Assembly (NCBI GenBank): GCA_031280035.1
Contig: JAITHJ010000054.1
Coordinates: forward strand, 1 to 35,025
Direction: 5' to 3'
Origin: Spirochaetaceae bacterium
GTDB taxonomy: Bacteria > Spirochaetota > Spirochaetia > Treponematales > Breznakiellaceae
DNA length: 35,025 nt
The notes under the pieces were generated by a model, which did no database searches, was not told where the DNA came from, and saw nothing but the letters and a program-made list of their open reading frames with translations. The position numbers were made by a program, and so were the translations under genes. Positions 5,366 to 35,006 of the stretch are shown here, piece after piece (position 1 is the first letter of the stretch; each line of letters starts with the position of its first letter).

Positions 5366-6199
5366 ATGGCGTTTAAACTTATTGCTTTGGATCTTGATGA
5401 TACGCTTTTACGTTCTGATTTGACAATTTCATCACGTACGCGGAATGCTGTTAAAAAAGCTGTCTCTGCCGGCGTTAGAATTGCGTTTGCCACAGGACGT
5501 GTGCCAAGCGCATTGTCAAATTATGTTAAAATGCTTGGCCTGAACAAGAATGAAGGCTGCCTTGTCTGCGGGAATGGAACGATGATTATAAGCAGCGTAA
5601 CCGGAGAATTGATTGATGAAGTTTATCTGCCTGTAAAAGATGCGCTTGCGGCATTCGATTTAATTGACGCGGAAGATTTTTCGGCGCAGATATACGATGG
5701 CAGCAATATTATTGTGTCGCGCCGAAATGAGTTTTCGAATACTGATGAAAAACTTACCGGAATGAAGCAGGTTATTCCTGAAAATTTCCGTTCTTTTCTT
5801 GCTGAAAAAAGAACGCATAAAATTGTAGTTCCCGCCGATCCAATGCTTTTAAAGCCGCTTGAACGGATACTTCGTAATGTTATGGGAGATAAGCTGACTT
5901 TGTTTACAAGCAAACCGTACTATCTTGAGCTTCTTCCGCCGGATTGTAATAAGGGAACGGCGCTTGAAAAGATAGCGGCTAAATTCGAAATCGCCAGAGA
6001 AGAGGTTATGGCGTTTGGAGATTCGATGAATGATGAAGCGATGATACGCTGGGCAGGCTGCGGAATTGCAATGTGCAACGGAGACAGCAGAATTAAAGAT
6101 GCAGCGCGGATGATAACAGAGAAATCAAACGATGAAGACGGTGTTGCCATTATAATTGAACGCCACATTCTTTCCGGTCTTCCATTACCGTCTAAATAG
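5366..6199 (+). CDS. Cof-type HAD-IIB family phosphatase
   Basis: This 277-residue protein is a haloacid-dehalogenase superfamily hydrolase of the Cof/IIB subgroup, which dephosphorylates sugar phosphates, nucleotides or cofactors. Motif I is DLDDTLL (residues 9-15, nucleophile D9 and acid/base D11). Motif II is FATGR, and the conserved Lys is in CNKGTALEKIA, followed by motif III/IV GDSMNDEAM near residues 218-226. The C2 cap between motifs II and III is present, as in IIB enzymes. It starts at ATG with AGG nine bases upstream, 68 bases after rnz and 11 bases before scpA, and is probably cotranscribed. The substrate cannot be deduced. Confidence 0.88.
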   Translation: MAFKLIALDLDDTLLRSDLTISSRTRNAVKKAVSAGVRIAFATGRVPSALSNYVKMLGLNKNEGCLVCGNGTMIISSVTGELIDEVYLPVKDALAAFDLIDAEDFSAQIYDGSNIIVSRRNEFSNTDEKLTGMKQVIPENFRSFLAEKRTHKIVVPADPMLLKPLERILRNVMGDKLTLFTSKPYYLELLPPDCNKGTALEKIAAKFEIAREEVMAFGDSMNDEAMIRWAGCGIAMCNGDSRIKDAARMITEKSNDEDGVAIIIERHILSGLPLPSK

Positions 6200-6210
6200 C
6201 AGGAATTTAT

Positions 6211-6987
6211 ATGACGGAATTATCGATAAATCATGATGAAAAAAGAAAAAAACCGCATAGTTTTACATTAGAAAGATTTGAAGGCCCGCTTGATATTCTT
6301 CTCTATCTTATAAAAAAGAATGAGGTAAATCTTTATGACATTCCAATATCGGAGATAACAGAACAGTATCTTTCATATTTGAAATTCTGTGAAAAACTTG
6401 ACCTTGATGATTTGACGGATTTTTATGCAACTGCTGCAATGCTTTTATACATAAAATCACGAATGCTGCTTCCAGTTGAATTTAATGAAGAAGACGAAAT
6501 TGAAGATCCCCGTGAAGAACTTGTTGATAAACTGATTGAGCATCAAAAGTTCAAAAAACTTTCTGAATTGATGGAAGAAAAAGAACGTGAGGCTGAGTGG
6601 GTTATCGAGCGAAAAAAGTTACAGCGCAGCCTGCCTTTTGACGATGAAAAGCTTTGGGAAAAAATAGACGTATGGGATTTATTAAAAACATTTTCAAATC
6701 TGACAAAAAATCTTTCTATTGAACGCATAATTGATCTGTATGAGGAAGTTTCAATCAACGAAAAAATCGTATTGATTGAAGAATTTATTGAAAAAAAAGG
6801 AGAACTAATGTTTACAGAACTTTTGGTACGTAAAGGTTCTCTTATGGATGTTGTATGTGCGTTTCTTGCGATACTTGAGGCTGTCAAACTACGCTTAATA
6901 ACGATATATCAAAACAAAATGTTTGGTGATATTTTAATACGAGGCTATCAGGCAAATACAGTTCTAGAGGAGGAAAATCTTGCTTAA
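6211..6987 (+). CDS. scpA: Segregation and condensation protein A
   Basis: A 258-residue kleisin subunit that bridges the SMC heads together with ScpB and helps organise and segregate the chromosome. The N terminus has the family hallmark FEGPLDILLYLIKKNEVNLYDIPI, here from about residue 23, followed by an acidic stretch (EEDEIEDPREEL) and a C-terminal winged helix that contacts SMC. ATG is preceded by AGGAA six bases upstream. The 3' end overlaps scpB by eight bases, which indicates translational coupling of the two partners. Confidence 0.95.
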   Translation: MTELSINHDEKRKKPHSFTLERFEGPLDILLYLIKKNEVNLYDIPISEITEQYLSYLKFCEKLDLDDLTDFYATAAMLLYIKSRMLLPVEFNEEDEIEDPREELVDKLIEHQKFKKLSELMEEKEREAEWVIERKKLQRSLPFDDEKLWEKIDVWDLLKTFSNLTKNLSIERIIDLYEEVSINEKIVLIEEFIEKKGELMFTELLVRKGSLMDVVCAFLAILEAVKLRLITIYQNKMFGDILIRGYQANTVLEEENLA

Positions 6988-7519
6988 TGACGCGGCATTG
7001 GTAGAAGCTGTTTTACATCTTGAATCTGAGCCTTTGGACGTGCATGCTCTTGCCCAGATTGCAGTTATCAGTGAAGAGCGCGTTGAATCGGCGCTTGATG
7101 TACTTCGTGAACGGTATGCGGCAAATGATTCTGGAATTGAAATTACGGCTGTATCCGGCGGGCTTCTGCTTTCTCCAAAAAAAGAACTTTGGGATCTACT
7201 CCGTGAACGGTATGGCAAAAAGAATGAAGGCAGGCTGTCCCGCGCGGCAATGGAAACGTTAGCCATAATCGCCTATTCGCAGCCTGTTACCCGCAGCGAG
7301 ATTGAGATGATACGAGGCGTTCAGGCTGATAATATGATACGCATACTGCTTGAACGGAATTTGATTCGTGAATCAGGAAAAAAAGATATTCCCGGAAAAC
7401 CGGCGCAATATTCCACAACAAAAGAATTCCTCCAGTTTTTTAGGATGGAAAGCATAGCCGATCTTCCCAAATTAACCGGAGCTGACGCCGATAAATTTGA
7501 ACTTGAAGAGAACGTATAA
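6980..7519 (+). CDS. scpB: Segregation and condensation protein B
   Basis: A 179-residue ScpB, the tandem winged-helix partner of ScpA in the SMC complex. The conserved second winged helix reads LSRAAMETLAIIAYSQPVTRSEIE and then the family signature IRGV, ending in GKPAQYSTTKEFL. The TTG start at 6980 is well supported by GAGGAGG at 6967-6973 and overlaps the scpA stop. This size is normal for the family. Confidence 0.94.
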   Translation: MLNDAALVEAVLHLESEPLDVHALAQIAVISEERVESALDVLRERYAANDSGIEITAVSGGLLLSPKKELWDLLRERYGKKNEGRLSRAAMETLAIIAYSQPVTRSEIEMIRGVQADNMIRILLERNLIRESGKKDIPGKPAQYSTTKEFLQFFRMESIADLPKLTGADADKFELEENV

Positions 7520-7542
7520 TAAAAATTTCTGCGGAAGATATT

Positions 7543-9261
7543 TTGGAAAAACAGTATTACTTTGAACGCAATCTTTTATCGCTTTCTATTTATAACCCTG
7601 AATTGTGCAAGCGTCTTTCTTCCGCGCAGACAACCCTTAATTATTACAAGTTTATAGACAGTAAAAACGGTGAAAGAATTCCTGCGTGGATTGATAAAGC
7701 AGGTCAGGCTCATATACTGCATTCATTTGTTGATCCTGTACGTGAAGCCGAAAAACTGATTGCCGCACTGAATACTGAAGGTTATGTTATTATTCTAGGA
7801 CTAGGCGCGGGATGTCTTGCCGAAGCGGCTTTACGACGCGACGATATCCATAAAGTTGTAGTAATAGACTATAATCTAAATTCAATTGCGGAATTATTAT
7901 GTTCAAGAGAGTACGTAACTTTATTCAGCGATCCCCGTTTTTCACTGCTTATAGATACAGACTGCAATGCAATAAAAAGTTATATAATAGAAAATTATAA
8001 TCCGTGCATACACAACGGAATTCGCCTTCTTCCATTGCGCGTCCGCTGTGATTTTGACCAAGAGCGTTTTTTTGCGGCATCTGATGCTGTAAAGCAGGCA
8101 ATTGACAGCGTATCGTCTGATTATTCCGTACAGACAAGTTTTGGCAGGCGCTGGTTTTCAAATATTATCAGGAATTTACGCGCTGCGGAAGAACAGCGGA
8201 TTGTTGTACCGCCTGTAAAAAGAGCTGCTGTCTGTGCGGCAGGTCCGTCTTTGGATACTCAGTTTGACATCTTAAAAGAGCAGCGGAAAAATTTATTTGT
8301 TATCGCATCTGATACTGCGCTTTCATCTTTAATTGCTGCAGATATAAAACCTGATGCTGTTATATCTATTGACTGCCAGCATATAAGCTATCTTCATTTT
8401 ATGAATAATAACATTGACGATATAACTCTTTTTCTTGATCTTGCAAGTCCGCCGCTTCTTACATCCAGAACGAAAAAGAATTTCTTTTTTGCAAGCGGAC
8501 ATCCGTTCACGCATTACATATGCACACGCTTCAGGGGACTGCCGGTGCTTGATACATCTGGAGCCAATGTTGCTTTTGCCGGCGTTTCTTTAGCGCAAGC
8601 GCTTGGGGCGCAAACAATCGAGTTATATGGCGCTGATTTTTCTTATCCGCAGGGAATGACTTATACTAGAGGCGCTTATTTTTATCCCTATCTTAGCCGC
8701 AGGCAAAACAGATTTCTGCCTGTAGAATCGCAGCTTGCCGATTTTTTATTCAAAACCCCGTCTCTTTCAAAGATCCAAACTGATACGGGTTATTATTATG
8801 AAACGCATTCTCTTGCAATGTATCGCAGAAAACTTGAGTTGAAAGCGCAGTCATCCAGCGTTAAAATAATTCCGGCGCGCGGCATAGGATCACGGCTTTG
8901 CATTGAAAGAAAACAAAATGATAATACAATGAATCCTAAAACATTTGATAATACAATCAAATTATTTTCCGGAGGCAAGGCGCTTTTAAGCGCGGATGTT
9001 TTTCTTAGAAACTACAGCCGCATGATTGAAGCGCTCCCGCTTCCCGGCGCGTATATAGAGCAGTATATACAAAAACTTTCACACAGCGAGAAAACAATCT
9101 GGACGACGCTGCTTCCGGTTGCCGCCGCTGTTAAATACAGAGAGAATATACACTTGAATATTGAACTTATACGGATTGTTAAAGAATTCTGCATAACAGA
9201 AATAGAGAAAGTTTTGAATAGCGGCGGTTCACAGCGCCCGCCTGTTGACAATCCGTTATGA
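7543..9261 (+). CDS. DUF115 / 6-hydroxymethylpterin diphosphokinase MptE-like protein
   Basis: A 572-residue DUF115 (MptE-like) protein. The DUF115 domain begins near residue 226 with AAVCAAGPSLD (GPSLD 234-238), then FVIASDTAL, IKPDAVISIDCQH (269-280) and GADFSYPQG further on, the usual core pattern. Before it lies a Rossmann-like domain with GLGAGCLAEAAL (86-97). Relatives in bacteria include the Maf proteins, which add nonulosonic acids to flagellin, and archaeal MptE, a pterin diphosphokinase. No direct evidence picks between these. In treponemes, whose flagella are periplasmic and glycosylated, a flagellin or sugar-transfer role is attractive but is inference. The TTG start has GGAAG 10 bases upstream, 23 bases after scpB, so it is probably in the same operon. 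Confidence 0.75.
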   Translation: MEKQYYFERNLLSLSIYNPELCKRLSSAQTTLNYYKFIDSKNGERIPAWIDKAGQAHILHSFVDPVREAEKLIAALNTEGYVIILGLGAGCLAEAALRRDDIHKVVVIDYNLNSIAELLCSREYVTLFSDPRFSLLIDTDCNAIKSYIIENYNPCIHNGIRLLPLRVRCDFDQERFFAASDAVKQAIDSVSSDYSVQTSFGRRWFSNIIRNLRAAEEQRIVVPPVKRAAVCAAGPSLDTQFDILKEQRKNLFVIASDTALSSLIAADIKPDAVISIDCQHISYLHFMNNNIDDITLFLDLASPPLLTSRTKKNFFFASGHPFTHYICTRFRGLPVLDTSGANVAFAGVSLAQALGAQTIELYGADFSYPQGMTYTRGAYFYPYLSRRQNRFLPVESQLADFLFKTPSLSKIQTDTGYYYETHSLAMYRRKLELKAQSSSVKIIPARGIGSRLCIERKQNDNTMNPKTFDNTIKLFSGGKALLSADVFLRNYSRMIEALPLPGAYIEQYIQKLSHSEKTIWTTLLPVAAAVKYRENIHLNIELIRIVKEFCITEIEKVLNSGGSQRPPVDNPL

Positions 9262-9272
9262 CTTTTTTGATA

Positions 9273-11315
9273 TTATCCTGCGGCGCTGCCAAGTCCTAAT
9301 GATGCGCTGATGTCGCCTGTAGTTCTTTGGACGCGCAGAGTGCTGTCCAGAACTTCGCGCGATATGTTTTCAAGGCTGCGGACAGCCTTCTGTATTACCT
9401 GACTTTCACTATGAATCGCCTGTGAGCCCTGCCGCACCTGATCCGCCGCGCCGCGCAATGCATCAAGCGCGCTTAATATCCGCTGGCCGCTCTCAACCTG
9501 ACCGGAAACAACATTATCCATCTTCGAGCAGGAACTGCCCATATCGGCTACTTCAGTAAAAATATGTTCCATCATCGCAACAGTTTTATCAGACACTTTT
9601 TGAATCCGCTCTATGCTTAAACGCATTGTTTTAATCTCGTTGGAAATCGAAACCGATTCTTTACTTGATGATTCAGCAAGACTGCGAACTTCATTGGCAA
9701 CGACAGCAAAACCCCTGCCCGCCTCGCCGGCATGAGCGGCTTCAATGGCGGCGTTCATTGCCAAAAGATTCGTCTGCGCGGCTATCTTTACCAGCGTTGT
9801 ATTCGCCGCTTCCAATATACCGGATTGTCCGGCCAATCTGGAAAGCTCGCCTGATAATTCCATCAACATTTTGCGGCCTTCTTCAGATGACCCGCCAAGT
9901 TTTCCGGTAGTCTGCTCGACCTCCGTAACAACGCTGCGCAGATCATCAATACGCCGTACCACATCCTCAATAGACGCCGCCGATTCGGTTATGCTCCTCG
10001 ACTGTTCCCCAACCGCTTTTTCCAGTGAATCTATATTAAAAACGATTTTACTTACCGCGTCCGTCGTCTGACTCATCGAATCCTGCTGGGCATTTGCCGT
10101 GCGCTCCATCAATTCCATACTCTGAATTATTGTCTGAAACCCGTCTCCTGACGCGCCAATTTTTGAATGCAGATCTTTTACAATGCCGGCATTTTTTTCA
10201 GCTTCATGCCGGATATCGCTTAAAGCCTTTTGCATATTATCACGGATAGTAAGAAGAGCACTTTGTATATCGCCTATTTCATCATGCCGTTTTTTCTTGA
10301 ACGCGATATTAAAATTCATGGACGCAATCAGAGCCGCCGCGGAAACCGCCTCTTTTACCGGTGCAACAAGCGATAATGCAGCAAGGCAGCCTATAAAAAC
10401 AACTACAAGGCCGGCAAGCACGCTAAAAAGTATTGAAGTAACCGCAATCATATTTACTTCTTTGAATATGTTGCGCGCGGGAATCAATGAAACAAGATAC
10501 CAGTCAACGTCAGGAATAAAAGCTGAAAAAATAAAATAATCATTGTCAAGCGACTGAAAATTATTCCGTGACTCAAGTATTTTTTGCCGGTAATAATTAA
10601 GGCCGTTTTCATCAAAAAAATCTTTCTTTAGAACTGCGTCAGGATCAGCATTGGTAACAAAAAGGCCGGCTGCGTTAATAAAATAACTTTTCTGTTCAGG
10701 AAACGATGAAAATTCGGCAAGCATATCATCAAGAAATCCAATAGAAACGTTTCCAGAAACTACGCCCGTGTCCACGCCTTTATAATATGCGTTTATTGAA
10801 ATAGCCGTAGTCAGTTTTTGGGTTACAGCATCAATATAAGGCGGAGCGAACGAAACCTGTCCGCCTTTCTCTTTTGCCCCCTTATACCATGCGCGCGCGG
10901 TATTATCCCAATTAGTATCAGGCCGGTAGTCCGTATCAAATGCGGCAAAACCGCCTTGTTGATACCAAACCCCGTTCCCGCTGCAATAAACAAGCACAAT
11001 ATCGGACTGCGTTGCTTTTATCTGTGAAAAAAGATCGTGAAGGGACTGTTCGTCAGCGGGAGTCTGCGCCATAAATGGCGCCGCGGAAATTGCCGTTTGT
11101 TTAACCAGCGCCGCCCATTGAGAACAGCGGCCAGCAACCGTATCGCGGAGGCGGCTTACCCGCTCGCTTACCTCCGCCTGAATTGCACGTGAAGAAAAAG
11201 CTCTGAACCGAACCAAAAATAACGTTGACACCAGCGCTGTAACGGTAAGTATTCCGCCTGCCACCACCACAATAAACAATACAGCAAACGACGTCCTTTT
11301 TTCTTTTACACCCAT
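9273..11315 (-). CDS. Methyl-accepting chemotaxis protein with dCache sensor
   Basis: A transmembrane chemoreceptor of 680 residues from the ATG at 11315. TM1 is about residues 11-35 and TM2 about 289-314. Between them is a periplasmic dCache domain ([12 protein letters not shown] 141-152, PPYID 158-162). A HAMP-like region (about 315-367) leads into a long methylation/signalling coiled coil whose conserved tip is [20 protein letters not shown] (511-530). The tip contacts CheA/CheW. In the sensor, the R-x-W-Y seen in amino-acid-binding dCache domains is present (R141, W143, Y144), but the Tyr before it is Trp136 and the later Asp appears as Asn189, so amino acids should not be assumed as ligand. 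The frame is open upstream to a TTG at 11375; the ATG avoids a repeated GVKEK. Confidence 0.93.
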
Positions 11316-11333
11316 ATTTTTTTCTTTTACACC
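11297..11333 (-). repeat. Direct duplication at the chemoreceptor start
   Basis: The 16-base sequence GGTGTAAAAGAAAAAA occurs twice on the minus strand, at 11333-11318 and 11312-11297, 21 bases apart. One copy precedes the ATG at 11315 and one follows it. The period is seven codons, so both copies are in the same frame. Confidence 0.85.
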
Positions 11334-11475
11334 TATATAAACTAGTACAATATCACATTTTACAGGCAATATCAAGCTGGTTTACGAACCTGTGAAAACA
11401 GGCTAAACCAGACGCAGCCTGCCCTCCAAACCGGCGTAAAGACTCAAAAATCTTCGGACAGCAAAACAAAGAATT

Positions 11476-11847
11476 TTATGAAAAAAACGTTACTGTTTTT
11501 AGCAGCTCATCCGGGGAAAACGGCTTTATAATATACCCTTTTGCGCCTTTGCTAATCGCTTTCTGCGCGGTTTTTGTCTCAGAATTCGAGGTCAAAAACA
11601 CAACAGGTACATTTTTGAGTTTGTCGTTTTTTTGTATGGTTTCAAGAAACTCAAGACCAGACATACCGGGCATTTCCATATCCAGCAGAATAAGATTGGG
11701 CATTACGGATTCAAGCGCGGCCAACGCTGATTTGGCATCAGTTACACAGCGAATATCATAATCATTTTTCAAAACCGCATTGATGCTGGTAAGTACTTCA
11801 GGCATATCATCAACCGCAAATATAATTTTTTTTGCATTCCCCATCAT
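11476..11847 (-). CDS. Single-domain response regulator (CheY-like receiver)
   Basis: A stand-alone receiver domain of about 123 residues. The acidic pair is D13/D14, the phospho-acceptor D56 (NLILLDMEMPG), the switch Thr T86 (VVFLTS) and the conserved Lys K108 (IIKPFSP). No output domain follows, so it acts by protein contact, as CheY or a diffusible relay does. The ATG at 11847 has GGGGAGA six to seven bases upstream; an open extension to 11892 runs into the promoter region and is unlikely. It lies 160 bases upstream of the chemoreceptor gene on the same strand, which suggests they share signalling, but the cognate kinase is not in the window. Confidence 0.9.
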   Translation of the reverse strand: MMGNAKKIIFAVDDMPEVLTSINAVLKNDYDIRCVTDAKSALAALESVMPNLILLDMEMPGMSGLEFLETIQKNDKLKNVPVVFLTSNSETKTAQKAISKGAKGYIIKPFSPDELLKTVTFFS

Positions 11848-11879
11848 AATGTCTCCCCAAAAATATTGTAATAATTGAC

Positions 11880-11908
11880 AGAATATTATCAAAACACGGG
11901 ATTGTCAA
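11880..11908 (-). promoter_or_regulatory. Sigma70-type promoter for the response regulator
   Basis: The minus strand carries TTGACA (11908-11903), a 17-base spacer and TATTCT (11885-11880). The transcript would start near 11873, about 26 bases before the ATG at 11847, leaving room for the GGGGAGA ribosome site. Confidence 0.5.
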
Positions 11909-11957
11909 TGCCGCCTGTCAGTTCTAACACCGAATCTCTTGATGTTTACTATAAAAA

Positions 11958-12374
11958 ATGTTAAAAAAAGATATGGGTGTTTTTAAAAACCTGGAAAGAG
12001 TTCTTTCGAGTTATATAGATGACTTTTTCCAATCCAGTGACAGAATACATCAAACTGAAAAAAACTCTTTTTATAACGATGATTTAAATGCAGCGCATGA
12101 TGAATTAAATGAATTTTTAAATAACGGATATAATTCCGCTTACGGCTTTGATAATCCCAGACAATCCCGCCGTGAGAAACCCGCAGAACATATTTTAAAA
12201 AAAGATTTTGATGAGCTGGGGGTTTCATCCGGCGCTCCTTTATCCGAATGCAAAAAAGCCTACAGAGCGCTTATAAAAATTTACCATCCTGATAAATCAG
12301 GCAGTCCTGATTCTGAAAAATTTATGCGAATTGAAACCGCGTATAAGCGCATTAAAGAATGGTACTCCAATTAA
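11958..12374 (+). CDS. J-domain protein with C-terminal J domain
   Basis: A 138-residue protein whose last 57 residues (about 82-138) form a DnaJ J domain: DELGVSSGAPLSECKKAYRA, then the essential HPD at 110-112 in IYHPDKSG. J domains stimulate the ATPase of DnaK. The first 80 residues are polar and acidic without a recognised domain and may bind the client. There are no Gly/Phe or zinc-finger regions, so this is a specialised class C co-chaperone, not DnaJ itself. The start ATG at 11958 lies 20 bases upstream of a second Met. It is followed 19 bases later by the membrane-protein gene, with which it is probably cotranscribed. Confidence 0.85.
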   Translation: MLKKDMGVFKNLERVLSSYIDDFFQSSDRIHQTEKNSFYNDDLNAAHDELNEFLNNGYNSAYGFDNPRQSRREKPAEHILKKDFDELGVSSGAPLSECKKAYRALIKIYHPDKSGSPDSEKFMRIETAYKRIKEWYSN

Positions 12375-12393
12375 TAATTACAGGTAATTAAAA

Positions 12394-14043
12394 TTGTTTA
12401 TACATAATAATAATTATATTCTTAAACGCATTTTTGCCGTCTTTATTATTTTCATGCCATTTATAATAAACGCTCTTGATAATAACACTGTTGTACGGCA
12501 TCGTGCACAAACGCGCTATAATGAATTAATTAAGCTTTTATCTGATAATAACCTAAAATTTACAGAACATAATCTTTTGAAAGACTACGGCGCGTACGGG
12601 ACGTCTGTTTTTGTTCATTCACGCCAGTCTGGAAAAACAGCCGGTATAACGCCGGTATTAGCGGTTCCTATTACAACATTAAATGACACAGGAGAAGATT
12701 TTCATTATGGCTTTAAATTGGCGTTAAAATTCATTGAAGAAATATCAAATGAGGCTGAAAGGCTGCCATTTATCGTAGCGTTCCTTGCCGATGACTGGGA
12801 TTCCGTTGCCGGTTCTATTGCCTTTGCCGGATTTGAAGATTTGTTGAATTCGATAATCGAAGTAAATAACACCGTAATACTTTATGCCGATATTACAGAA
12901 AAAACGCCGGCGCTTAGTATAGTACACGCTTCAGAAAATTCAACTATTCCGCTTAATGTTTTATCATCATTTACTGATGCGTGCAAAAAATTTGATGTAC
13001 GCTTTAATTTATATACTAAGTATAATGTTCTTTATAAATACAAAATTATCAAAGACCAAAAACAAATTCAAATGGCAAATGAATATAATATACCAATATT
13101 ATATATAAAAGCTTCATCAACAACCGCTGCCGGTACAAATATATACGATAATACTATAGATCTTGACAATACGGCGCTTGCTTTTATTGACTGGTCTCTT
13201 GCAATGGATAAAACAGCAGATACAGAATCAACATATAATTATTTTATATCAGGTTCAGAAAGCTATCCAATCTTCCTGTCTGAAAAATCAATTATTTTCT
13301 TTTCATTTACGTTTGCTATACTGCTGTTTCTATACATATTATTTATTCGGTATTCAAAAAAACGAACGAAGCTGCTTTTTATTGTTATGTGCGTGTTTTA
13401 TACGCTGTTTTTTATTGTCTTAATGATTATTGACATCACTCTTGTTTTTTTTGCGCTGCCTTCATTATTCATTTTATCACTGATGTTCGGCCTGCATGCT
13501 TTAAACAAAAAAATTAAAATAATAAAGAAAAACAAAATTAAAATATTTCTTATTGTAATGTCAAGCTGTCTCTTGTTATCTCTAATTCCTTTTTATGACA
13601 TTTTTTCTGATACAATAAAACTAATTATAGAAAACTACAATGAATCTAATATTCCATATAAAGCGATTCCCTTGGAAACTGGCGGCGTTATCAAAGATGA
13701 TCCGCTTGAAATACTGGTACGCGAAGAAAAGTTTTCAGAACGCCGCGCTATGTATTTTAATTTATATAATATCGGAATACCGCTGCGCTACCGTATAATA
13801 CTCCATACGAATGATTATATTTTAAACAATTATTTTGATGACGGCGGCGTACTTCCGTTTATATACGCCGCTCCAGTACCCTATATAATTTCAGCTGAAG
13901 GCATCGAATTCATATTGGGATCATATCCGCCCTCTCATTTTAATATTGATATCACCCTTCCGCTAGAAATAGGCGGTTTTTTTTCTGTCGAAACCATTTA
14001 CAGCGATGATATTCGCATAATACGCAAACTAACGTTTGATTAA
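12394..14043 (+). CDS. Uncharacterised membrane protein, possible degenerate M28-like domain
   Basis: A 549-residue protein of unknown function. It has an N-terminal signal or TM segment (about 10-27) and an extracytoplasmic domain of some 270 residues. Then come four close hydrophobic segments (about 300-319, 327-347, 348-369 and 383-402) and a C-terminal domain of about 150 residues. Segments such as PVLAVPITT, FIVAFLADDWDSVAGSIAF and ALAFIDW recall the alternation of strands and helices in M28-type peptidases, but no His/Asp/Glu zinc ligands are evident, so any relation would be a catalytically dead version. The start is a TTG with AGG about 10 bases upstream. It lies between the J-domain gene and trmJ. 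Confidence 0.7.
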   Translation: MFIHNNNYILKRIFAVFIIFMPFIINALDNNTVVRHRAQTRYNELIKLLSDNNLKFTEHNLLKDYGAYGTSVFVHSRQSGKTAGITPVLAVPITTLNDTGEDFHYGFKLALKFIEEISNEAERLPFIVAFLADDWDSVAGSIAFAGFEDLLNSIIEVNNTVILYADITEKTPALSIVHASENSTIPLNVLSSFTDACKKFDVRFNLYTKYNVLYKYKIIKDQKQIQMANEYNIPILYIKASSTTAAGTNIYDNTIDLDNTALAFIDWSLAMDKTADTESTYNYFISGSESYPIFLSEKSIIFFSFTFAILLFLYILFIRYSKKRTKLLFIVMCVFYTLFFIVLMIIDITLVFFALPSLFILSLMFGLHALNKKIKIIKKNKIKIFLIVMSSCLLLSLIPFYDIFSDTIKLIIENYNESNIPYKAIPLETGGVIKDDPLEILVREEKFSERRAMYFNLYNIGIPLRYRIILHTNDYILNNYFDDGGVLPFIYAAPVPYIISAEGIEFILGSYPPSHFNIDITLPLEIGGFFSVETIYSDDIRIIRKLTFD

Positions 14044-27078: not shown

Positions 27079-27117
27079 TAAAAATTGGCAACACATTTTA
27101 AGGGAGTTTTTAAAGAT

Positions 27118-28584
27118 ATGAATTATAGAGCAATACAACGATTTGGATTTCTTTTTATAGCGTTTATTATAGCGGGATGTACTGTACAAGGCGTCTCCGA
27201 TGATAATGGAGAACCCGCCGGAGGTTCTTCTGGCCCTGTTTATAAGGCTGCGGTAAGAGTTAATTATCCGGCGCTTGGTTCATACGTATTTAGTCCGGCG
27301 GCGGTTGAAACCAAAGGAGTCGCCTCGAAAACAAAGGTAAGCATTACGATAACGCCAAAAGAAGGCGTGGCGATTTCCGCTCCTCCCACAGTAACCACAA
27401 CAGACGGCGTTACTGTCAGCGTATCCAATACCGAAGACAATACTAATATGGTAGTCTCATGGCAAATGCCGCCATGCAATATAATTGTAGACTTTGCATT
27501 TGAAACAACAGCGATATCAATCAATCAGCTAAAGAACATTGACGCCGGTACAAATGCCACACTCTATCCGCTGTTTGATCCAGGCTGCGTATTATATCAA
27601 ATTACAACAGTTACGGATGCTGTAACTATTACGCCGACGGCGTTTTACGATAACGCAAGCCTGCAAAAACGGATTGGCAGCGGTAACTTTGAACCATTAG
27701 AAAACGGAAGTTCGTTTACTGTATCTATTAATGAAAATCAGTCAAAAAAAATTTACATTAAAGTTATAATAGATGATGGTATTTCAAATCTTGTCTATAC
27801 AATTTATGTCAGGAATACAAAAGCCGTACAAGACGGACTTTCATGGACAAATGACGCCGACTGGGTTGTGCCGGCGACAGGATGCTATCTTGTTAAGGTA
27901 CGCGGCGCTCAGGGCGAAAAAGGCGTAAACTCAACCGGCAGCGATAATGGCGCCGGCGCGCAAAACGGCAAAGGCGGTTATGGCGAAGGTAAATTATTTC
28001 TGGAAGCCGGTACCACTCTTAAAATAATCGCTGATGGAAGCGGCGGTTTAGGCGGTAACGGCGCGTCCGGCAACGGCGGTTTAGGCGGTAAAGGCGGTAC
28101 GGGCGGCGGCATGGCGGCAATTAAGAGCGAAGAATCCTTTATTATTGTCGCAGGCGGCGGCGGCGGCGGCGGTGGCGGCGGAAATGGCAATGCAGGAGTC
28201 GGCGGCGGCGGCGGCGGGGTAAACCGTAACGGATCAAAAGGCAACAACGGCAGTTCGTGGAGTTCTTCAGGAACCGGCGGAAATGGCGGAACCGGCGCAA
28301 CAGTAGATGCCAACGGCGGGAATGGCAGCGTAAGCGGCGGCGGAACCGGTTTTGCAGGCGGCGGCGACGGCAAACAAAAAGGCGGCGGCGGCGGCGGCGG
28401 GAACGGTTATAAGAACGGCGGCGGCGGCGGCGGCGCATCAAAATCGGGCGGCGGCGGCGGCGGCGGCGGCGGTTCGGGTTACGCGGATACTATGAAATTT
28501 ATCCCCGGAACGTTGCAGGGATCCGACAACAGCCAAGATGGAAACGGAATGGTTGAAGCTATTTGGCTGGGGGCTTTTAATTGA
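27118..28584 (+). CDS. Lipoprotein with cadherin-like and ALK-type glycine-rich domains (copy 1)
   Basis: A 488-residue lipoprotein from the ATG at 27118, which has AAGGGAG upstream; an upstream TTG frame is less likely. Lipobox IIAGC puts the anchored Cys at 21, followed by TVQGVS. Next is a domain with NYPALGSYVF, then a cadherin-like beta sandwich (about 135-240), ending YTIYVRN. The last part (about 250-488) opens with a VVPATGCYLVKVRGAQG strand and turns into long glycine blocks such as IIVAGGGGGGGG, ending with SGYADT. This matches the glycine-rich ligand-binding domain of the animal ALK receptor (Pfam Gly_rich), known also from bacterial surface proteins. Surface exposure is likely but the partner is unknown. 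It resembles the next gene closely at both ends. Confidence 0.85.
   Translation: MNYRAIQRFGFLFIAFIIAGCTVQGVSDDNGEPAGGSSGPVYKAAVRVNYPALGSYVFSPAAVETKGVASKTKVSITITPKEGVAISAPPTVTTTDGVTVSVSNTEDNTNMVVSWQMPPCNIIVDFAFETTAISINQLKNIDAGTNATLYPLFDPGCVLYQITTVTDAVTITPTAFYDNASLQKRIGSGNFEPLENGSSFTVSINENQSKKIYIKVIIDDGISNLVYTIYVRNTKAVQDGLSWTNDADWVVPATGCYLVKVRGAQGEKGVNSTGSDNGAGAQNGKGGYGEGKLFLEAGTTLKIIADGSGGLGGNGASGNGGLGGKGGTGGGMAAIKSEESFIIVAGGGGGGGGGGNGNAGVGGGGGGVNRNGSKGNNGSSWSSSGTGGNGGTGATVDANGGNGSVSGGGTGFAGGGDGKQKGGGGGGGNGYKNGGGGGGASKSGGGGGGGGGSGYADTMKFIPGTLQGSDNSQDGNGMVEAIWLGAFN
28447..28473 (+). repeat. (GGC)n glycine-coding tract, copy 1
   Basis: An almost pure GGC run of nine units at the end of copy 1, followed by ttcgggtta and a GCGGATAC stretch. 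Similar shorter runs occur earlier in the gene (about 28153, 28381 and 28418). All are in frame, so a change of unit number would alter the glycine count without breaking the frame. Confidence 0.85.
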
Positions 28585-28659: not shown

Positions 28660-30486
28660 ATGCAAATGAAAAAATTTTTATACGGCGCTTTCTGTACAGC
28701 GGCGTTTAGTATAATAAGCTGCTCAGTACAGGGCGTATCGGAAGAGAACGCAAAAAACGCGCCGCCATCGCCGAAAGCAAACGCGCCGTTTTTACTCAAT
28801 GTCTCGGTCTTTGTGGACGCTGAAGAGCTTGCACTAACGCCGCAATTCAGCAGCAATGTACTCTCCTACGAAGCTTCATTCCGAAGACCGCAAACGGGTA
28901 TGACGACCCGCATAACCATCAACGCCGAAACCGGTAATCCGGGCTGGAATGTCAATATGTCATCGAATTTACCTCCTGTAATCCAAACAATTACACGTTC
29001 TGGAAATCAGTTCAATGTGATAATGACATCCAGCGGACAGATTACTCTGGAAGTAACCGACGGCAAACTCATAACCGCATATTCAATCGATATTGCGCTG
29101 GTCGATCCCGGAATGTACCGTGTGCTTCAAGTAACATCCAATTATCCCTCGCTTGGCTCATACAGATTTGATCATACAAAAGTAGAACACTACGGCGTTC
29201 AAAACGGCACAACGGTTTCCATGACGGTAACTCCGCCGGGCAACTATATCAAGACAAGCGCATTGCCGGTGGTAACAACCATAAACGGCGTTGCTGTAAC
29301 CGTAAACGGATCTGTTCCCGACGACAATGAAACGGCAACATTTTCATGGGTAATGCCCGAAGACGATATTACTATATTACTTTCATTCGAGACATTTATC
29401 CTAACAATGAATCATCTTATCAATTTAGCCGTTGATGACACTGATACGTTAAATCCTGAATTCGATCCTTTGATATTTGAATATCAGCTTACAACAACAG
29501 AAACAAGCGTATCTGTTACGCCATTCGCTTTTCATTTGGCGGATATTACTAAAAAAATTGATGGCGGCGCGGCAGCGGAGGTTGACAACGAAACTCCAGT
29601 TGCGGTATCCGTTGCCACTGATAATTCGCATACATTAAAAATTACAGTTTCCGCAGCCGGATACACAGATAACGAGTATACTATCTATATAAGAAATATT
29701 TATACGGTCAGTCAGCCAGACGGCGAAGTTATCAGCGCTTCAAAAACATGGAATTCGCCCGCAAAAGGACGTTACCGTTTTGAAGTTTATGGAGCGCAGG
29801 GCGCAGCCGGCGGCAATTCGGGCGCAGCCGGCGGCAAAGGCGGTAAAAGCGCAGGCGAAATTTTACTGGAATACGGAGAAGAATTTGCCGTCATTACAGG
29901 CGTTCAAGGCGGCGTTGGAAGCGTAGAAACCGGCGGCGCATCAGTCGGCGGGAGAGGCGGCGGCACAACCCGTATCAGGAAAGGAAGCGATTATCTTGTT
30001 GCAGGCGGCGGAGGCGGCGGAGGCGGCAAAGGCTCTGGCAGCGGCGGCAGCGGCGGCGGCGGCGGCGGCGCAAACACGAGCGGTTTCCCTGGCGTCAATG
30101 GTACCGCCAGCGCAACCAATAATGACTGCTGCGGAGGCAGGGGAGGAGGCGCAACAACAACGGCGCATGGCGGCGGCGGCGGCGGCGGCTCTTACAATAG
30201 CAGAGAGCATTATGGAAATCCCGGGACAGCAGGTTCTAATTCAGGACCCGGCACCGGAGGATTTGGCGACAAGTGGAACGGAAATCTCGGCGGCGGCGGC
30301 GGCGCGGGGGGAGAAGGTCATAAAAATGGCGGCGGCGGCGGCGGCGGCGCGGCGCGTGCAGGCGGCGGCGGCGGCGGCGGCGGTTCGGGTTATGCGGATA
30401 CGAATAAATTCAGCACTATCCAAAGCGAAACCGGCGTACATACTGGGAACGGAAAAGTAGTGATTACCTGGCTTGGCTGCCGCTAA
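28660..30486 (+). CDS. Lipoprotein with cadherin-like and ALK-type glycine-rich domains (copy 2)
   Basis: A 608-residue paralogue of the preceding protein, with an extra N-terminal domain. The signal peptide ends in IISC (Cys 21), followed by SVQGVS as in copy 1. Beta domains follow: one ending near YSIDIAL, one with NYPSLGSYRF as in copy 1, and a cadherin-like one ending YTIYIRN. A glycine-rich ALK-type domain then starts at GRYRFEVYGAQG and contains VAGGGGGGGG and a final GSGYADTNKF. An odd CC (NNDCCGG) lies in the glycine region. AGAAGG precedes the ATG by seven bases. The gap after copy 1 is 75 bases with no terminator, so the pair is probably one transcript; a local promoter is not excluded. 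The function is unknown. Confidence 0.85.
   Translation: MQMKKFLYGAFCTAAFSIISCSVQGVSEENAKNAPPSPKANAPFLLNVSVFVDAEELALTPQFSSNVLSYEASFRRPQTGMTTRITINAETGNPGWNVNMSSNLPPVIQTITRSGNQFNVIMTSSGQITLEVTDGKLITAYSIDIALVDPGMYRVLQVTSNYPSLGSYRFDHTKVEHYGVQNGTTVSMTVTPPGNYIKTSALPVVTTINGVAVTVNGSVPDDNETATFSWVMPEDDITILLSFETFILTMNHLINLAVDDTDTLNPEFDPLIFEYQLTTTETSVSVTPFAFHLADITKKIDGGAAAEVDNETPVAVSVATDNSHTLKITVSAAGYTDNEYTIYIRNIYTVSQPDGEVISASKTWNSPAKGRYRFEVYGAQGAAGGNSGAAGGKGGKSAGEILLEYGEEFAVITGVQGGVGSVETGGASVGGRGGGTTRIRKGSDYLVAGGGGGGGGKGSGSGGSGGGGGGANTSGFPGVNGTASATNNDCCGGRGGGATTTAHGGGGGGGSYNSREHYGNPGTAGSNSGPGTGGFGDKWNGNLGGGGGAGGEGHKNGGGGGGGAARAGGGGGGGGSGYADTNKFSTIQSETGVHTGNGKVVITWLGCR
30328..30383 (+). repeat. (GGC)n glycine-coding tracts, copy 2
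   Basis: Two GGC runs of about seven units each, separated by a short GCGCGTGCA block. The second is followed by the same TTCGGGTTA and GCGGATAC bases as in copy 1, so the two gene ends share about 40 nearly identical bases. Confidence 0.85.
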
Positions 30487-30566: not shown

Positions 30567-33257
30567 TCAATTATTTCCGGTTTCTACTTGACTCCAGTTC
30601 TCCGGCTTAAAAATATTATCGTGAACATGCATCCACTGATCTTTTTTTATATTAAAAACACGTTTTCCTCTTAAATCACGACTAATATGCCAAAGAGCAG
30701 CAGTAGTAATCGTTGCGCCCTGTTCTTTATCCGCCGTAATTGTTTTTCCTGTAAATGGATTACGCGCCTCAACGATAAGACCGCGCGCTGCAATGTCCGG
30801 CGTATCAGCATTAGTCATAAAATCCATATTGACCTGTAACGGAGCGCTGTTATTGAAATCCTTTACAAGGAACAGCGGGTTATAACTTTCAACTATTCCT
30901 CCATTGGGAAGTTTAATATTGTCTGGAAAAGGGCTTGAACCGCCCCATCCATGATCTGAAACAATAATAATCCGTGTATTATCATACACGCCGTTCTTTT
31001 TAAGAAAATCAAAAAATTTCCCTAAAAGAATAAACGTCGCCATATTTACATGATAATGGGTTTCTTGCGCGAACGGGCCGTTTCCCCTATTGGAAATCTC
31101 TGACGCAGGTTCATAAGACGGGACATCAAAATAAGCGGGTTCATGAGTTAAGTTATTTACAATTATATTTGCAAAAGATTCATCATCGTTTGTTACGCGG
31201 GTAATTCGGGACAGAAAACTCAAGAATGAATAATCATCTAACATCAAACGAGAATAAGCCGCGTCCTTTTCTTTGAAAGATGCGGTAGAAAAATAATCGC
31301 CGTGATCATAAAAAAATTTATGCAGTGTAAGCGGCATAAATTTTAACAGTGAGTACCGCACCAGACAGTAACTTAACTTTTTATAATAAGAAATGTATTC
31401 AAATTCCTTATGTTCAGAAAGATAATAACTCAAATAATCATGTTCATTATCCGCAACTTTTATATCATCTCCAATGTCGTATAATTCACCGTTCATCCAC
31501 GGCAAATTACTTACGGTAACGTTAAATCCTCCATTCGACATAAGAGTGGGCAGCATATAGAGCGCTTCGTGAAATTTCTTTTCCAGAAGCTCGTCAGAAC
31601 GTTTTTGAATTTCCAGCGGAGTATATTCATAACCGCCAAATACCGGCGGCGCTCCCAGTGTGGTAACAGGTCCAAAAGATACGCAATTTGGATAATAGGT
31701 AAATCCGCTCCATGATTCCAGCAACTCAGGTTTCTCTCTAAAAATAAAGGGAACATAACCTGAAATACCTCTGTCGCACATGATAACGAGTACATTACGC
31801 GACGTCTTTGAAAAAGTATAAACGCTGTTGAGGTTCTCCGGCGTTATCTCATTGACGGCGCCGCTTCCGGCTCTATTCATAAAAGAGCGGTTTATCTTTA
31901 CTATGTTGAATATGCCCAGCGCTATAAAAACGCCTATCATGATACTTGGTATGGCGAACGCCGCATGGCGGCGTTTTATACGCAGAAGAAATAAAACAAA
32001 CGCGCATACAGCTATGATTGCAGCGATATTTATCAATTTTTCATGTCTTGGAGCGGATGTGAACTGTGCAAAAACCAAATCGGGAAGCATGAAACCATAA
32101 TTACCTCCAAATACAAACGTATTCAAAACGGCGACCGCCAAAAGAATCGCCGTGAATGCGGCAATCAATACGCGCATTGAAGAGCGCGCCATAATAAAAA
32201 AGCCAAACGCCCATAAAAACACGCCGCTTGCCTGAAGCATTGTTATCCCAATAAACGGCAAAGGAGAATTGAACGGTTTAATATTTGAAAATTCCTCCGC
32301 GCTTGACGCAATAAGCGTTGAAGGAACAAAAAAGCCGGCCAGCAGCATAAGCGCAAGCAGAGACAGTACAAAAAGACGCGTACAATATGCCGTATCTTGC
32401 ATAGCGGGCTTCACAGCGCGCCAAAACGCGGCAGCTATCCGCCTCAACAAAAAAAGCGCGGGAACAGCAAGCGCGGCGCATGCAATAACAAGCCTCTTTA
32501 TAAAAACCCCGTCGTGTATAAAAAGCACATAAAACGCCAGCATACACGCCGCGCCGCCAAGCGCATAAAAACCTATGCGCTTTACGCTCTTGTTTCTTTC
32601 AGCGAAATTCTTTATCAGGCTGTAAAGATTATTGCATGTCCAGTAGAGGACAAGCCCCGCAGGAGAATTATAAAGCAGAATAAGAAACAGCGCGGCCATT
32701 CCGTAAAGCTGGATTTTCTCTTTCAGCGCAAAGCCGCGCGTATACAGTACGCTTGAAGCGCAGTTGATAGCCGTCATTAAAACGGGAAGGATGTTGACGG
32801 CGAATCCGCAAATGTTTAACGCGCCGTCGCTTTTGCCTAAGTCTTTAATAAATAAGAATGCCGTGCCGTTCAACGCTTCAAGGCCTGATAAAAAATGATA
32901 CGCCGCTATGAAGAAAGGAATTTGTATGATAAGGCCAAGGCTGCTGCGCAGCGAGTACACCGGATGATAATTATTCTGGCGGTACCATGCCGCAAGCATC
33001 ATATATCGTTCATCGCCGCGGAAAACGGCGCGTATGTTATCAACGGCGGGTTTGAGCCGCTTCTGCATAGCGCGTTCCAGGCGCTGCTGGCGTTCGGCCA
33101 TGAAATAGAGCGGCAGGGTCAGCGTGCTGACGACCGCGCTTACGCCGACAACGGCAATCGCCGTATCATGAAAGATACGCCACACAAAAAGATATGAAAA
33201 CTCAATTATTGTTTCAAGCGGATAAATAAAAACAAAGTACCCTATATCCGAGATCAC
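30567..33257 (-). CDS. YidC/Oxa1-like membrane domain fused to an LtaS/sulfatase-like domain
   Basis: An 896-residue fusion. Residues about 1-220 resemble the YidC insertase: PLYFMAERQQRLERAMQKRL (49-68), LIIQIPFFIAAYHF (109-122) and the classic last helix NSPAGLVLYWTCNNLYSLI (197-215). The groove Arg that YidC carries five residues before the conserved Pro is Ser44. More membrane helices follow up to about residue 452. From 488 an alkaline-phosphatase-superfamily domain begins: D495 (VIMCDRG), a nucleophile-region Thr532/533 (FGPVTTLGAPP), H705 (LTHEPAYF) and D768-H769 (VSDHGWGG), as in LtaS phosphoglycerol transferases and sulfatases. It should face outward. GTG start with AAGGAG, 14 bases after the next gene. 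Roles of both halves are inferred from families. Confidence 0.85.
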   Translation of the reverse strand: MISDIGYFVFIYPLETIIEFSYLFVWRIFHDTAIAVVGVSAVVSTLTLPLYFMAERQQRLERAMQKRLKPAVDNIRAVFRGDERYMMLAAWYRQNNYHPVYSLRSSLGLIIQIPFFIAAYHFLSGLEALNGTAFLFIKDLGKSDGALNICGFAVNILPVLMTAINCASSVLYTRGFALKEKIQLYGMAALFLILLYNSPAGLVLYWTCNNLYSLIKNFAERNKSVKRIGFYALGGAACMLAFYVLFIHDGVFIKRLVIACAALAVPALFLLRRIAAAFWRAVKPAMQDTAYCTRLFVLSLLALMLLAGFFVPSTLIASSAEEFSNIKPFNSPLPFIGITMLQASGVFLWAFGFFIMARSSMRVLIAAFTAILLAVAVLNTFVFGGNYGFMLPDLVFAQFTSAPRHEKLINIAAIIAVCAFVLFLLRIKRRHAAFAIPSIMIGVFIALGIFNIVKINRSFMNRAGSGAVNEITPENLNSVYTFSKTSRNVLVIMCDRGISGYVPFIFREKPELLESWSGFTYYPNCVSFGPVTTLGAPPVFGGYEYTPLEIQKRSDELLEKKFHEALYMLPTLMSNGGFNVTVSNLPWMNGELYDIGDDIKVADNEHDYLSYYLSEHKEFEYISYYKKLSYCLVRYSLLKFMPLTLHKFFYDHGDYFSTASFKEKDAAYSRLMLDDYSFLSFLSRITRVTNDDESFANIIVNNLTHEPAYFDVPSYEPASEISNRGNGPFAQETHYHVNMATFILLGKFFDFLKKNGVYDNTRIIIVSDHGWGGSSPFPDNIKLPNGGIVESYNPLFLVKDFNNSAPLQVNMDFMTNADTPDIAARGLIVEARNPFTGKTITADKEQGATITTAALWHISRDLRGKRVFNIKKDQWMHVHDNIFKPENWSQVETGNN

Positions 33258-33270
33258 GCATTTCTCCTTG

Positions 33271-34584
33271 TCATAATTTTTCTATAAGCCCGCCGTCTTT
33301 GCGGCGTTTTCCGCCGGCATGTCCGCCGCGTTCTTTGTCCGGCATGACCGCGGCCAAAGACGCGGCTTTGGAAATCATGAAATCAGCCGTCCGTTTTCCG
33401 GCGGCGGCGCGGTATTGCCACGCGGTTTCTTTTGCCTTAACGCGCGCTTCTTTGAGCGCCGTGCTGTCAAGCGATTTTTGAATAATCGTTTTAATCTGCG
33501 GGAAATCCTGTTCGCGCAGTTCCACGCCGGTTTCCCGCAGCGTTTTGATCTGCCACAATTCGCGTTCGGGCAGGAACCACGCGTCGTACGGACGAAAGTC
33601 GAATTGATAATTGACATACAACACCGGCTTATCGCACAGGAACATATAGTCGAATATGATGCCGGAAAAATCCGAGATCATAATATCCGCCTTAGAAAGC
33701 GCGCCTATGTTATCGCGCTCATAATCCCAGATGACGTTTTTGCATGAAGCGTAGCGCGCGGTAAGCCGGTCAAGCGCGGTTCGTTCAGAAATGAGCGACT
33801 GCGGGTGCGGGCGCACGATAATCCGGCAGCCCGAACCGGCCAGCGGCGTAAGAAGCTTTTCGCCGTAACGCGAAAGCAGCGCGGACGCGCCCCACGACGG
33901 CGAAACGAGTACGGTAAGCTCATGATTTTGTCCGCGCGGCATTTCGGCGAGTCTTTTCCGGTACTCATCGAGGTAGCCGCATCCGACGGTAACAAGTTCT
34001 TTACGCGCCAGCGCGCGTACTTGTTCCACGCGCCGAATATCCTCGCCCTGATAGCCGCCTGTCATCAGGATCGAATCAAAGTAATCGAGGCCGAACATAC
34101 GGTACGTTGTCGCATCCGTAACGCCGTGAATGACGTGGGAATAGTGCCGGACGCCTTTTGAACGTTTCCATTGATAGACGTCAAGACCGGGCGTGGTCGC
34201 CAGCACAAAATCGGCGGAAATGAAATTAAGCCGCGCGAACCCTTTATTGCCCTTTGCGAGCAGTTCGCATTTGACGTGCGCATACTGAGCGTCAAACGCC
34301 GGATCGTCAGGCGAACCGGTCAGATAGAGGAGTTCGATGCCGCGGGCTTCAAACTCCTCCACGACGCCTTTGAAAAGCGACCAGTACCGTTTATCTTCGG
34401 CATAGATGACGAACCTGTTATCCGCCGCCGGTTTTCGTACGCCGCCGGTAAAAAACGCTTTGGCCTTAATCAAAAGGGCGTGAAATAGGAAATAAATAGT
34501 CGCCGCAATGCCGATAACTATTGAAAAAAGCACGCTTCCTGTTCCGGGATCAATATATAAGGGGAAAAGCACGATGTATCTCAT
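33271..34584 (-). CDS. CDP-glycerol glycerophosphotransferase family protein
   Basis: A 437-residue protein of the TagB/TagF glycerophosphotransferase family, which adds glycerol phosphate or a like unit from a CDP donor to a lipid-linked acceptor at the inner membrane face. The catalytic half has RPHPQS, then SKADIMISDFSGIIFDYMF and DKPVLYV, with the His-containing nucleotide-binding site. The N terminus is unusual: YIDPGTGSVLFSIVIG with one membrane segment (about 15-38), a motif found on proteins next to sulfatase-like transferases. The GC content is higher than that of the middle of the window. It lies 14 bases upstream of the YidC-sulfatase gene and shares its promoter. The polyol and acceptor are not known; a glycan polymer is the simplest guess. 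Confidence 0.85.
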   Translation of the reverse strand: MRYIVLFPLYIDPGTGSVLFSIVIGIAATIYFLFHALLIKAKAFFTGGVRKPAADNRFVIYAEDKRYWSLFKGVVEEFEARGIELLYLTGSPDDPAFDAQYAHVKCELLAKGNKGFARLNFISADFVLATTPGLDVYQWKRSKGVRHYSHVIHGVTDATTYRMFGLDYFDSILMTGGYQGEDIRRVEQVRALARKELVTVGCGYLDEYRKRLAEMPRGQNHELTVLVSPSWGASALLSRYGEKLLTPLAGSGCRIIVRPHPQSLISERTALDRLTARYASCKNVIWDYERDNIGALSKADIMISDFSGIIFDYMFLCDKPVLYVNYQFDFRPYDAWFLPERELWQIKTLRETGVELREQDFPQIKTIIQKSLDSTALKEARVKAKETAWQYRAAAGKRTADFMISKAASLAAVMPDKERGGHAGGKRRKDGGLIEKL

Positions 34585-34831: not shown

Positions 34832-34880
34832 GGAGGAACGCGCGGTTCATCGTGATATACCGGAGTGAAATCTGGAATCC
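34832..34880. repeat. 49-base direct repeat, first copy
   Basis: Begins GGAGGAACGCGCGGTTCA and runs through GTGATATACCGGAGTGAAATC to AATCC. It matches the copy at 34958-35006 at 46 of 49 positions. Confidence 0.85.
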
Positions 34881-34957: not shown

Positions 34958-35006
34958 GGAGGAACGCGCGGTTCACCGTGATATACCGGAGTGAAATCCG
35001 TAATCC
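34958..35006. repeat. 49-base direct repeat, second copy
   Basis: Second copy of the repeat, with a period of 126 bases. The three differences are T to C at one site in the first half, and T to C and G to T in the AAATCTGGAATCC end. The array may continue past the window edge. Confidence 0.85.

Follow-up and report, generated by a model that had tools for sequence, protein, structure and literature searches.

Two adjacent minus-strand genes near the end of a 35,025 nt stretch of Spirochaetaceae DNA (assembly GCA_031280035.1, contig JAITHJ010000054.1, positions 1 to 35,025; hereafter the window) encode a YidC-like domain fused to an enzyme of the alkaline-phosphatase superfamily, and a TagF-like transferase. 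The fusion (30567..33257; 896 amino acids (aa), GTG start with AAGGAG on its 5′ side) lies 13 nt downstream of the TagF-like gene (33271..34584; 437 aa), and the two form a real system. On balance it probably builds or tailors surface glycans with phospho- or phosphono-alcohols activated by cytidine monophosphate (CMP), as a membrane system of two components, or of three in some genomes. No prior description of this pair of YidC fusion and DPGTGS protein was found in the open-access literature, a search outside which most subscription papers fall.

Linkage and distribution of the pair

A genome-wide scan gave 413 places encoding relatives of the fusion, and 77 loci were retained, mostly from Treponema and other spirochaetes, together with some from Clostridia. 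The partner gene, with its DPGTGS motif, is present in 61 of the 77; the median gap between the two genes is 2 nt, and they share a strand in 65 of 66 cases. The fusions are frequently in tandem. Among 296 spirochaete genomes the fusion occurs in 68 and the partner in 66: both genes are found in 65 genomes, the fusion only in three, the partner only in one, and neither in 227 (Fisher 1e-60, with no correction for kinship). The four single-gene genomes are all drafts (66–91% complete), and joint absence is also seen within genera, such as g8, where three genomes have both genes and two have neither. The initial annotation had treated the two genes as a possible system, and their linkage does recur across phyla, much more consistently than a single locus would have led one to expect.

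In a clostridial order, 6 of 147 genomes carry the fusion, and these same 6 are the ones that carry the partner. The YidC-like cores of these bacteria (eight distinct rows) form one clade of their own (support 100/99), which, with the exactly matching partner distribution, rules out contamination as the source of the clostridial members. Two Bacteroidota-labelled contigs with spirochaete-type fusions (L018, L072) group with spirochaete sequences in the tree and probably result from misbinning.

The genome that contains the window (1.43 Mb, 64% complete) carries two more fusion paralogues, both orphans without an adjacent DPGTGS partner (L010, 10038-12743; L011, 5435-8131). The first is followed by genes that, by eye, are PP2C-type phosphatase-like and MFS-like. 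A second DPGTGS gene (L012, 7403-8641, on G000 C53) is solitary, with no fusion beside it, and lies upstream of a gene named by eye as rsmG-like. The contig of the window stops 441 bp past the partner gene. A 49 nt direct repeat, 94% identical (34832-34880 and 34958-35006), lies between the pair and the contig end and may be the cause of the contig break. Near the fusion are two tandem plus-strand genes (27085-28584 and 28660-30486), likely encoding lipoproteins (GCTVQG and SCSVQG) with glycine-rich C-terminal ends; a Cadherin-like beta-sandwich domain (PF12733) is present in the second of them.

Domains of the fusion and its partner

The first 222 aa of the fusion (32592..33257) correspond to a YidC/Oxa1-like core. 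PF02096 matches aa 34–218 (E 4.9e-22), the NCBIfam model TIGR03592 (yidC_oxa1_cterm) matches slightly under its family cut-off (E 3e-23), and a profile of the fusion family recovers solved YidC structures for aa 8–224 (E to 5e-10). As in YidC/Oxa1 insertases, the core is complete, with the amphipathic helix, a first transmembrane (TM) helix, the cytoplasmic hairpin and TM2–TM5, including the PAGLxLYWxxNN helix. The AlphaFold2 model of the whole protein (mean predicted local distance difference test 91.1, predicted template modelling score 0.86) shows an amphipathic helix and five YidC-like TM helices, then seven further TM helices, then the outer domain. YidC is not among the 50 Foldseek matches listed for this model, which are dominated by alkaline-phosphatase-superfamily proteins, so the YidC assignment rests on sequence profiles and helix pattern. 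The YidC fold anticipated by the initial annotation was thus recovered in the profiles and in the predicted helices, but not among the listed structural matches.

Unlike YidC/Oxa1 insertases, the fusion family lacks the positively charged groove residue, and its core is joined to, or in one operon with, a transferase-type domain. In the alignment, Ser44 takes the place of the Escherichia coli YidC groove Arg, a replacement that had been noticed in this one protein and proves systematic: among 75 fusions, position 44 is Ser in 32, Thr in 30, Asn in 12 and Gly in one, and never Arg or Lys. The same position is Lys, as read by eye, in the canonical YidC of the same genome, which is encoded elsewhere (C40, 197.8 bits) and is 27% identical to the fusion core over 172 columns. 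With this gene present, the fusion cannot be the sole insertase of the cell, a case that would have counted against the initial annotation. The core may still insert or chaperone one particular protein, either the sulfatase half attached to it or the partner, and its true YidC homology, down to the cytoplasmic hairpin and PAGLxLYW helix, is in keeping with such a role; the absence of a groove Arg or Lys in all 75 fusions, along with the canonical yidC elsewhere, makes this very unlikely.

Seven additional TM helices (aa 223–480; 31818..32591), recognised from the helix pattern, hydropathy and Lys/Arg count, are predicted to place the last domain outside. This domain (aa 481–896; 30570..31817) belongs to the alkaline-phosphatase/sulfatase superfamily, as indicated by PF00884 (aa 488–771, E 3.3e-5, just short of the cut-off when taken alone), invariant residues and Foldseek. 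The C-terminal end of the family profile matches LtaS, choline sulfatase and phosphonate monoester hydrolase, and the top folds listed by Foldseek are MCR-1, EptA, PbgA, phosphonate monoester hydrolase and LtaP, with LtaS also among the matches. N488, D495, T532, H705, D768, H769 and K799 are each invariant in all 75 aligned relatives. D495, D768 and H769 are putative metal ligands, and H705 would be an additional catalytic-site His. T533 varies among the relatives, so T532 is the candidate nucleophile; the active-site residues named in the initial annotation therefore stand, except for T533, which had been offered as an alternative to T532. No formylglycine signature (C/S-x-P-x-R) is found at the nucleophile site in the 75 rows, which have Thr there instead, and a true (type I) sulfatase is ruled out by the missing motif.

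The arrangement of T532, D768-H769 and H705 in a predicted outer domain behind TM helices is that of EptA/MCR-1 and LtaS/LtaP, which likewise have a membrane-anchored outer alkaline-phosphatase-superfamily domain with a Thr nucleophile and a D-H metal pair. The first metal ligand in LtaS and EptA is Glu, whereas the fusion has D495. It also differs from these enzymes in having 12 membrane helices that include a YidC core, and in its near-obligatory TagF-like partner. Overall, the fusion of a YidC-like domain to an LtaS/sulfatase-type enzyme is upheld by PF02096, PF00884, the residues invariant in 75 relatives and a confident AlphaFold2 model.

The upstream gene had been described as a relative of CDP-glycerol (cytidine diphosphate glycerol) glycerophosphotransferases with a DPGTGS motif, and this holds. 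PF04464 matches aa 245–334 of the product (E 6.6e-8), and its best Foldseek matches are Cps3D (8qoy) and TagF (3l7k), both consistent with a glycosyltransferase-B (GT-B) fold. In common with TagF/TagB and Cps3D, the partner has RPHPQS and SDFSG motifs; its conserved residues are H153, R258, P261, Q262, D305 and S307. It is distinguished from these enzymes by a single N-terminal TM helix with an invariant LYIDPGTGS just before it, and by the lack of a TagD supply in most genomes. The positive-inside rule would put LYIDPGTGS on the outer side of the membrane, with the enzyme itself cytoplasmic. Clostridia that carry the DPGTGS partner can also hold a separate TagF-like protein.

In two genomes the pair is split into separate genes for a YidC-like protein, the partner and a sulfatase-fold protein. 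One operon (L121 in G092) encodes PntC-Ppm, Ppd and PntC-AEPT, followed at 8555-12433 by a stand-alone YidC-like protein (238 aa), the DPGTGS partner and a 607-aa PF00884 membrane protein. The other locus (L098 in G183, with the three unfused genes at 5733-9847) is made up of the same components, but here the phosphonate genes are divergent. The sulfatase-fold protein of L098 lacks a significant Pfam match and by eye resembles the PF00884 proteins of L121 and L106. L106, whose sequence starts with the partner gene, has two separate sulfatase-fold proteins. Such unfused membrane proteins carry an ES metal motif. With the fusion profile, neither L098 nor L106 has a significant match in its sulfatase-fold proteins, which count as another subfamily, suggesting that the outer enzyme is exchangeable while the YidC-like core and partner are constant.

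This constancy, and an invariant LYIDPGTGS sequence just ahead of a lone TM helix, would also be expected if the YidC-like core were a docking scaffold that clamps the hairpin of the partner, uniting inner and outer transferases in one complex while some other protein flips the glycolipid. The retention of an entire Oxa1 core with polar invariant residues is left unexplained by such a role, which is considered rather unlikely.

Neighbouring genes and donor supply

Genes that recur beside the pair encode glycosyltransferases, GDP-heptose-type (guanosine diphosphate heptose) enzymes, LicC-type nucleotidyltransferases, fusions of LicC with an aminotransferase, and proteins of CMP-aminoethylphosphonate metabolism, supporting the view that these are surface-glycan loci. 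A nucleotide-activation gene lies within 6 kb in 39 of the 77 loci. One neighbour cluster (c12) matches the solved and assayed PntC-AEPT of Treponema denticola, Tde1415 (6PD1, E 8e-283). The PntC chemistry of Tde1415 is established, and CMP-2-aminoethylphosphonate (CMP-AEP) has been identified as the activated form (PMC6697681). PntC-Ppm, a mark of phosphonate tailoring, occurs in 25 of the 68 fusion genomes versus 5 of 228 others (Fisher 1e-13). In the genome of the window PntC-Ppm is on contig C15, not adjacent to the fusions in the available sequence.

Elsewhere the neighbours point to other head groups. LicC, choline kinase and an EamA transporter adjoin the pair in two loci (L077, L100), and LicC-choline kinase and EutH do so in L101. 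A LicC-like cytidylyltransferase fused to a HisC/CobD-like pyridoxal phosphate enzyme (L074, 14665-16650, with similar genes in 22 loci) could use phosphoserine to produce CDP-ethanolamine. This neighbour cluster (c3) is heterogeneous, and CDP-ethanolamine supply is for that reason a weak assignment for it. The LicC, choline kinase, PntC, Ppm, Ppd and AEPT genes are shared with LicABCD/Pnt tailoring systems, but here the YidC fusion and TagF-like partner occupy the place expected for LicD, which is annotated among the neighbours of L097 only.

The initial annotation had placed the pair in teichoic-acid-type polymer assembly; in such a system the partner would draw on CDP-glycerol to polymerise glycerol phosphate, with the fusion as an LtaS-type synthase. 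Membership of PF04464 and PF00884 and the Foldseek matches to TagF and LtaS/LtaP are in line with this, as are weak, sub-threshold TagD-like genes that adjoin the pair in G218, G239, G260 and G290, a few genomes that may use glycerol phosphate or another alcohol. However, TagD, the CDP-glycerol synthase, is above its curated cut-off in only 7 of the 68 fusion genomes and adjacent to the pair in none of the seven; it was not found in the genome of the window, which is 64% complete. The neighbours provide AEP, choline or ethanolamine instead, as CMP-AEP, CDP-choline and CDP-ethanolamine. The teichoic-acid proposal is thus mostly wrong, with quite a low probability left to it, and surface tailoring with CMP-activated phospho- or phosphono-alcohols is preferred. 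The usual donor would be a phospho or phosphono group of aminoethyl type, activated by CMP.

A possible route to decorated surface glycans

Under the preferred reading, the groups transferred may be 2-aminoethylphosphonate, ethanolamine phosphate or choline phosphate, with glycerol phosphate perhaps in a minority. In the cytoplasm, CMP-AEP, CDP-choline or CDP-ethanolamine would be produced by PntC/Ppm/AEPT, by LicC with a choline or ethanolamine kinase, or by the LicC-aminotransferase fusion; the supply of CMP-AEP to this system is deduced from gene position. The helix-tethered LYIDPGTGS enzyme would then transfer the group from CMP to a lipid of the inner leaflet, either undecaprenyl phosphate or a diacylglycerol or glycolipid. 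The YidC-like core, lacking the groove arginine, may provide a hydrophilic path by which the head group is flipped to the outer leaflet, and may instead or in addition dock the hairpin of the partner. Purified YidC and Oxa1 relatives scramble lipids in vitro (PMC10491306). Finally, the outer domain would form a covalent intermediate with the group on its Thr and then pass it to the glycan, as EptA and LtaS do, a step suggested by the fold and the invariant residues. Tandem fusion paralogues would share one partner and serve different acceptors.

More specifically, the fusion may be an Oxa1-superfamily protein that is no longer a protein inserter and acts as a flippase or scramblase of a lipid-linked phosphono- or phospho-alcohol, joined to an outer transferase, and with its partner may supply the missing transfer step after CMP-AEP; this is a tentative proposal, and less likely than the general one. 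Several points weigh against the scheme as a whole. In about half of the 77 loci, many of them truncated at a contig end, no activation gene could be recognised within 6 kb, and none of the three fusions of the genome of the window has one adjacent in the available sequence. The scramblase step is drawn by analogy, the predicted Thr-nucleophile domain could be a hydrolase rather than a transferase, and the weak TagD-like genes described above also count here.

The steps that follow carbon–phosphorus bond formation in phosphonate tailoring were called enigmatic before CMP-AEP was identified (PMC6697681), and the pair offers concrete gene candidates for the step beyond CMP-AEP. It also appears to be a natural instance in which an insertase-type fold serves lipid or glycan chemistry, which bears on the lipid-scrambling insertases (PMC10491306). 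For Treponema and other spirochaetes, the pair points to a system of envelope decoration.

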